A stretch of DNA of 44,853 nt from Verrucomicrobium spinosum (GTDB lineage Bacteria > Verrucomicrobiota > Verrucomicrobiia > JADLBR01 > JAIBCM01). The stretch's first letter is position 1. Every line of letters begins with the position of its first letter. The notes beneath the pieces are model-generated. The model was not told where the DNA came from. It saw only the letters and a program-made list of their open reading frames with translations, and ran no database searches. The stretch is taken from positions 1 through 44,853 of the forward strand of contig DYRQ01000007.1 of the NCBI GenBank assembly GCA_020718645.1. Direction: 5' to 3'. Below, in pieces: positions 8,967 to 44,853 of this stretch. Both the position numbers and the translations under genes were made by a program.

Positions 8967-11318
<2,352 letters not shown>

Positions 11319-11423: not shown

Positions 11424-11521
11424 CCTAAATTCCGCAGTTGGAGGCCATTTTCCAACTGCGGTGTAGTTCAGCTTTGTTTTTGCATCTCACTATTTCACAG
11501 TAAATTGTATTTCCCGTAGAC

Positions 11522-11546
11522 ATCTAAAAACAGGGTGTTTTTAGAT
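11522..11546. repeat. Perfect 11-bp hairpin, terminator-like without clear T-tail
   Basis: ATCTAAAAACA (11522-11532), loop GGG, TGTTTTTAGAT (11536-11546). The stem is perfect but AT-rich. Its right arm (GGGTGTTTTTAG, 11533-11544) can instead pair over 12 bp with CTAAAAACACCC at 11610-11621 inside the 180-bp element. The two folds are mutually exclusive. It may help end rpoD transcription, but it lies about 200 bp past the stop codon and has no U-run after the stem. Confidence 0.5.
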
Positions 11547-11564
11547 CGAGTGTCCATTCACTTA

Positions 11565-11744
11565 AACCCAGATTTTGCATTAGACACCATGTTTTCTACT
11601 GATGCAGAGCTAAAAACACCCGAAACATCATTACCCATTTGGTGAATATAACACATTGATTAAGAAACGAATCAGGGTTTTGATTTCTAATGCTTTGCAT
11701 TAGAAACTGAAGAACGCAGCCCTTCCTAATGCAAAATCTGGGTT
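11565..11744. mobile_element. MITE-like 180-bp element with 19-bp terminal inverted repeats
   Basis: Left end AACCCAGATTTTGCATTAG (11565-11583) and right end CTAATGCAAAATCTGGGTT (11726-11744) are perfect 19-bp inverted repeats. The inside is non-coding and holds a perfect 10-bp hairpin, TTTCTAATGC (11684-11693) and GCATTAGAAA (11697-11706), that reuses the GCATTAG core of the ends. The left 57 bp recur at 44797-44853 with a single difference (G to A at 11591 versus 44823). The last 15 bp recur at 1-15. Flanking sequences differ in all copies. This is the pattern of a small non-autonomous transposable element; no transposase is present. I see no certain target duplication: a TTA precedes both left ends. 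Confidence 0.8.
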
Positions 11745-11808
11745 AAAAAGTGAAGTCAAAAAGGGTTCTTTTCACTCGGACAGCCTACTTCTAACTGCGG
11801 AATTTAGG

Positions 11809-12076
11809 ATCAATAAGAGTGGACGGGGCGACACGCGAATTGGAGGCGATGCCATAGACCACAAATGGGAGCAGCCTGCGCCTTGCAGCTACCCGCCTCA
11901 CACTATTCCCGGTTTCAGGCTAAATCTTTATCCCCGTCTCTCTACTCTACAGAGATCCGCAGCGAAAAATTTCTCCCTTTTGAAAATCCTGTCAGAAAAT
12001 CGGCAGCAGAATAGTGGGGGCTGGAGGAAGGTGCTAGGAACGGGGATCCAGCGACGGAGTCATGGCAGCTTTGCGC
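11809..12076. other. Intergenic segment between the repeats and the epimerase gene
   Basis: No gene or RNA that I can support. This is the 3' side of both rpoD (+) and the epimerase operon (-), so transcripts converge here. I found no strong rho-independent terminator for either. Composition is similar to the surroundings. Confidence 0.3.
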
Positions 12077-44702: not shown

Positions 44703-44796
44703 CTGCGGCAGGTCTGGGCCTTGGGTTAGAGGTTCTCAGAACGGGTGGATGTTGGTGTATTGTCCAGCACCACTTGTTATTGCATAATCTCGATTA
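44703..44796. other. Spacer after the transporter operon
   Basis: No gene. A 94-bp spacer between the permease stop and the repeat. I saw no clear hairpin terminator in it. Confidence 0.4.
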
Positions 44797-44853
44797 AACC
44801 CAGATTTTGCATTAGACACCATATTTTCTACTGATGCAGAGCTAAAAACACCC
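44797..44853. repeat. Left end of the 180-bp terminal-inverted-repeat element (partial)
   Basis: Identical to 11565-11621 except one base (A at 44823 versus G at 11591): 56 of 57 positions. It starts with the terminal repeat AACCCAGATTTTGCATTAG and runs to CTAAAAACACCC at the last base of the window. The sequence upstream of it differs from that at 11550-11564 except for a shared TTA. The element continues beyond the window. Confidence 0.85.

Follow-up and report, generated by a model that had tools for sequence, protein, structure and literature searches.

The window, a stretch of 44,853 nucleotides of Verrucomicrobium spinosum DNA, is the whole of contig C94 in a draft genome of 2.56 Mb and 152 contigs. 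It carries, between two convergent genes, a short non-autonomous element that we call MITE-1, which is nested within an older host MITE, and each end of the window falls inside a further element. The sigma-70 gene at 8967-11318 encodes a primary sigma factor homologue of 783 aa, the extended N-terminal region of which has a 36-bp (12-residue) tandem repeat at 9171-9242. The features are as follows.

1-13, no strand: 13-bp remnant of an element end, from MITE-1 or a related family, truncated where the contig stops and flanked by TTCAA
11419-11423, no strand: host MITE target duplication ATCAA, left copy, read directly
11424-11808, no strand: older host MITE, 204 bp after subtraction of MITE-1 (176 bp) and one copy of its 5-bp duplication, ends CCTAAATTCCGCAGTTG / CCTAAATTCCGCAGTTA (two matches, 0 expected)
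11562-11566, no strand: MITE-1 target duplication TTAAA, left copy (at 10 of 11 copies the two 5-bp sequences agree exactly)
11567-11742, + strand: MITE-1, 176-bp non-autonomous element (11 full genome copies, 99-100% identity)
11567-11583, + strand: MITE-1 left terminal inverted repeat, 17 bp, CCCAGATTTTGCATTAG
11687-11703, + strand: MITE-1 internal palindrome CTAATGC-TTT-GCATTAG, with arms that repeat the 7 inner bases of the ends
11726-11742, - strand: MITE-1 right terminal inverted repeat, a perfect 17-bp match to the left
11743-11747, no strand: MITE-1 target duplication TTAAA, right copy
11809-11813, no strand: host MITE target duplication ATCAA, right copy, read directly
44799-44853, + strand: left 55 bp of a further MITE-1 copy, truncated where the contig stops, 98% identical with one mismatch, TTAAA at 44794-44798

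The initial annotation had described this element as a 180-bp unit with perfect 19-bp terminal inverted repeats, and the 19-mer has three matches in the window against 0.01 expected by chance. The inverted ends are indeed there and match at 17 of 17 bp, but the other copies prove that the two outermost bases at either side are part of the 5-bp TTAAA duplication, so that the true repeat is 17 bp and the unit 176 bp. The internal hairpin reusing GCATTAG, also described there, is present in the sequence, and its arms reach 10 bp, all perfectly paired, at 11684-11706. No ORF of at least 100 aa covers the 176 bp, in agreement with the lack of coding capacity first noted. The predicted RNA fold is strong (−58.6 kcal/mol, z −8.1), a value to be expected from a perfect inverted repeat. 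In the surrounding host MITE, a separate perfect hairpin, ATCTAAAAACA-GGG-TGTTTTTAGAT, lies at 11515-11555, and the string CTAAAAACACCC recurs in MITE-1 (11610-11621). The host MITE ends, CCTAAATTCCGCAGTT(G/A), also adjoin IS1380 transposase fragments on contigs C51 and C95.

Searching the full genome with the unit returned 11 complete copies, all intergenic and none inside a spanning ORF. Seven of them, including that of the window, are identical and four have one difference, a near-identity that points to a recent burst. About 13 partial copies of 24-60 bp were also found, most of which stop at a contig end, and most measure 47-60 bp, as expected from k-mer overlap. The proposal of a dispersed, high-copy MITE-like element is thus borne out beyond the window, and no outcome named as refuting it was seen. 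Since one broken copy yields two contig ends, we estimate 17-20 MITE-1 insertions in total. The window was also taken for a contig broken by such a repeat, which fits its being exactly one contig, with an assembly break at both ends. The copy claimed at its right end is MITE-1 with one mismatch, whereas the 13 bp at its left end are too short to be assigned, as other families here share TGCAAAATCTGGG; no contig overlapping the window start was found. Contigs C121 and C37 have the same flank across a contig break of this kind, and MITE-1 accounts for much of the fragmentation of this assembly. Allowing up to 2 mismatches, the 19-mer has 90 sites in the genome, many of them 8-57 bp from a contig end, and a broader end pattern has 164, compared with 0 for the reversed control in each case, which indicates that the related elements are, as a group, abundant.

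The search was extended to 56 relatives, which contain no match to MITE-1. The nearest of these, G001 (same family), has 22 end-like sites and no MITE-1 copy, which suggests that it has its own IS1380/MITE families. These end-like sites mostly read CCCAAATTTTGCATTAG and CCCAGATTTTGCATTTG. In the viral collection, a pattern scan detected no IS1380 relatives, and no piece of MITE-1 was found.

Alignment of the 11 copies, each set in different flanks, defines the 17-bp repeats and confirms that the boundaries are real: 5-bp target duplications border the full copies, ten exactly and one with 1 mismatch. Besides TTAAA in the window, the duplicated targets are TTCAA, TTAAT, TTGAA (three copies), TTCAA/ATCAA, TTCAA, ATAAA (two copies) and TTTAC, and can be summarised as AT-rich, TTNAA-like and 5 bp long. 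A second family of MITEs in this genome, of about 290 bp and on G000 contigs (e.g. L055:481-769, L053:1680-1967 and L065:402-689), with ends CCCAGATTATGCAATAG / CCCAGATTATGCAATTG and 5-bp duplications of its own (TTCAA in L055), is a repeated target of MITE-1. Three copies (L004, L005 and L006) occupy the same TTGAA of this family, in two orientations. Uninterrupted members read GGATTGAAAACT, and the interrupted ones GGA-TTGAA-CCC...GGG-TTGAA-AACT; that is, the empty site GGATTGAAAACTC can be compared with the filled site TTGAA-CCC...GGG-TTGAA. MITE-1 was therefore inserted and not merely repeated. The use of one site in two orientations reflects either a hot spot or the movement of a composite.

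The exact 17-mer was scanned against about 85,000 species genomes. This gave 70 stretches in Omnitrophota, Bacteroidota, Verrucomicrobiota, Pseudomonadota and others, where about 30 are expected by chance (an estimate for a random 17-mer). Many of these stretches have a partner in inverted orientation and a 5-bp duplication that matches exactly or nearly so, forming gene-less elements of 79-297 bp; ends of the MITE-1 type are thus found across several phyla in short elements without genes. The scan also revealed complete insertion sequences: L120, of 1,397 bp, has a TTTAA duplication on both sides and one end that matches the 17 bp of MITE-1 exactly, and L141, of 1,398 bp, has unmatched flanks. 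Both encode proteins of 444 aa that score above the IS1380 equivalog cut-off (NF033539; 214.9 bits for L120, cut-off 180), which is also passed by L157 and L159.

In the genome of MITE-1 itself, a transposase fragment exceeds the PF13701 cut-off, and the ends of the IS1380 fragments differ from those of MITE-1 by 1-2 bp (CCCAAATTTTGCATTAG on C2/C135 and CCCGGATTATGCATTAG on C91/C109). The full-length IS with the same ends that had been suggested as a check is therefore matched in part, exactly at one end of L120 and closely in the genome's own fragments. This assembly holds no complete IS1380 gene, only fragments, and intact copies may be missing from it, since several fragments are cut at contig ends. 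We also considered MITE-1 as a descendant of an IS end of this genome; in BLAST comparisons with those ends, only the termini and the palindrome rose above background, with no support for descent beyond them.

Taken together, the 176-bp unit is very probably an IS1380-type MITE, most likely moved in trans by an IS1380-family transposase, judging from the shared sequences. The enzyme may have been supplied by an IS of this genome, the ends of which are expected to read CCCA(G/A)ATTTTGCATTAG. The transposase, a DDE enzyme (PF13701), would bind each end at its inner sequence, TTTGCATTAG, and cut outside CCC, and MITE-1 would then insert at AT-rich, TTNAA-like 5-bp targets, which become duplicated. 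The palindrome, in which the inner end sequence stands twice in opposite orientation, is probably an asymmetric extra site for the transposase, and as it lacks the outer CCCAGAT, it is expected to be bound and not cut.

The palindrome of MITE-1 matches the inner ends at 14 of 14 positions (p=0.005 against shuffles), is predicted to form a DNA hairpin of −8 kcal/mol (z −5.9), and is shared with the IS1380 fragments of the same genome. The inner end sequence is repeated in inverted form towards the 3' end of the transposase gene; this holds for 14 of the 19 elements whose ends are defined, always with a 3-nt spacer and at a distance of about 80-270 bp from the 3' end. The remaining five lack it (L178, L171, L230 and ISEcp1) or fit poorly (L244, with an imperfect version). 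In 11 related IS it is read as the codons TGC TTT GCA (T/A/G)T(A/T) GG, encoding CFA(L/I/V)G, and TGC TTT GCA is invariant in all 11 sequences, compared with a mean synonymous identity of 0.47 over 90 columns. The TTA of the motif is the sole TTA among 44 leucine codons in L157 and L158 (GC3 0.76-0.77). Other IS1380 groups have the palindrome CAACTGC-N3-GCAGTTG at a different position of the protein, where it encodes CNAVE, CHAVD, TAPQL or TAEQL and is in some cases read in a different frame; in L205, the ends are GAAGTAG/TAAGTTG and the palindrome GAAGTTG. The arms resemble the ends of their own element at 6.0 of 7 positions, versus 5.4 of 7 after permutation (p=5e-5, for a hand-assembled list of pairs and ignoring shared ancestry), and the p-values of single-element shuffles range from 0.005 to not significant. 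The case for the palindrome is thus made by the constant spacer, the position and the codon evidence together, and from these we lean towards a site bound by the transposase.

Such a site could either help or restrain transposition, and MITEs without the palindrome have also moved. It is absent from the ~290-bp MITE family of the same genome, which has the same ends and duplications, and from most MITEs with these ends in other taxa, and is therefore not needed for MITE movement. These clean duplications in MITEs without it also leave some room for a purely regulatory palindrome, where the transposase, once bound, would repress the gene that encodes it or inhibit transposition, as has been suggested for a subterminal site of piggyBat, the activity of which is restricted by subterminal sequences (PMC11707139). 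We regard this as possible but rather doubtful, given the location of the site at the 3' end of the gene, distant from the promoter, and given that MITE-1, which has no gene, still keeps a perfect version with 10-bp arms. Its absence from most other MITEs with these ends would also agree with inherited debris, left after internal deletion of an IS. However, MITE-1 shares no further sequence with an IS, its palindrome lies about 55 bp from the end compared with about 166 bp in the IS, its arms are more perfect than those of the IS, and the conservation inside the IS genes would be left unexplained, so that debris, too, appears unlikely.

The strong hairpin, the position of the window copy between convergent genes and the lack of full copies within ORFs could be taken as signs of a domesticated regulatory repeat, a terminator or source of small RNAs that spread under selection, and the initial annotation had raised both functions. 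Neither is supported, as Rfam gave only sub-threshold matches and a terminator scan of the intergenic region found 2 sites versus 0.9 expected, close to chance; intergenic siting is itself expected from selection against gene disruption, and we consider domestication highly improbable. A segmental duplication or assembly artefact, to which the many copies at the edges of contigs in this draft might point, is already contradicted by the absence of shared flanks, the duplications at 10 of 11 copies and the nested insertions with their empty sites, and has practically no likelihood left.

MITE-1 is therefore a real element and, as a kind, an ordinary one: one more MITE family. The interest extends beyond it, to the palindrome embedded in the coding region of IS1380 elements, which is a concrete and testable candidate for a cis-acting site in a transposon family related to ISEcp1. 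In the open literature searched we found no IS1380-linked MITE, and no description of a coding-embedded IS1380 palindrome appears in the open papers searched, a set that leaves most subscription journals and ISfinder outside its scope.

MITE-1 resembles other bacterial MITEs, such as Correia elements, TIMEs and MITEPye1, in being short, gene-less, intergenic, hairpin-forming and flanked by duplications, and in sharing its inverted ends with a transposon family. TIMEs are tied to Tn3 and MITEPye1 to IS1182 (PMC4133298, PMC11578231), whereas the ends of MITE-1 are of the IS1380 type. With the IS1380 family (ISEcp1/ISEc9, ISPsp9) it has in common the 5-bp duplications and ends that begin with CC and are similar to CCTAGATTCTACGTCAG of ISEcp1, and elements whose ends match carry a gene for a PF13701/NF033539 transposase, which MITE-1 lacks. 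ISEcp1, in turn, lacks the palindrome found in MITE-1. In ISEcp1 (L210:415-2070) there is a possible end-like copy, GTCTAAATTCTTCGTGAA, at most about 60 bp from the right end and inverted relative to it, which by eye resembles the left end CCTAGATTCTACGTCA.

A further parallel is found in piggyBac, which combines TTAA-like targets with palindromic, asymmetric internal repeats, as the IS1380 elements do. On one end of piggyBac, a dimer of the C-terminal domain binds a palindromic internal repeat of 19 bp (PMC7351741), subterminal sequences inhibit the activity of piggyBat (PMC11707139), and IS1380 is used as the prokaryotic outgroup in one piggyBac tree (PMC10813416). A search with the IS1380 transposase profile gave no sequence match among solved structures (PDB), and a model of the transposase built from two sequences has a pLDDT of 32.6. 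The eukaryotic piggyBac differs from MITE-1 and IS1380 in its zinc-binding CRD and its 4-bp TTAA target, a strict requirement from which the 5-bp targets of MITE-1 (TTAAA, TTCAA, TTGAA, TTTAC and ATAAA) depart. In its architecture, the palindrome may link the IS1380 elements of bacteria to the piggyBac of eukaryotes. We put at about even the chances that much of the IS1380 family has a second, asymmetric putative transposase-binding palindrome, hidden in the 3' coding end of the transposase and evolving with the ends, as the prokaryotic counterpart of the piggyBac internal repeat, with MITE-1, consisting of ends plus palindrome, as its minimal natural substrate.
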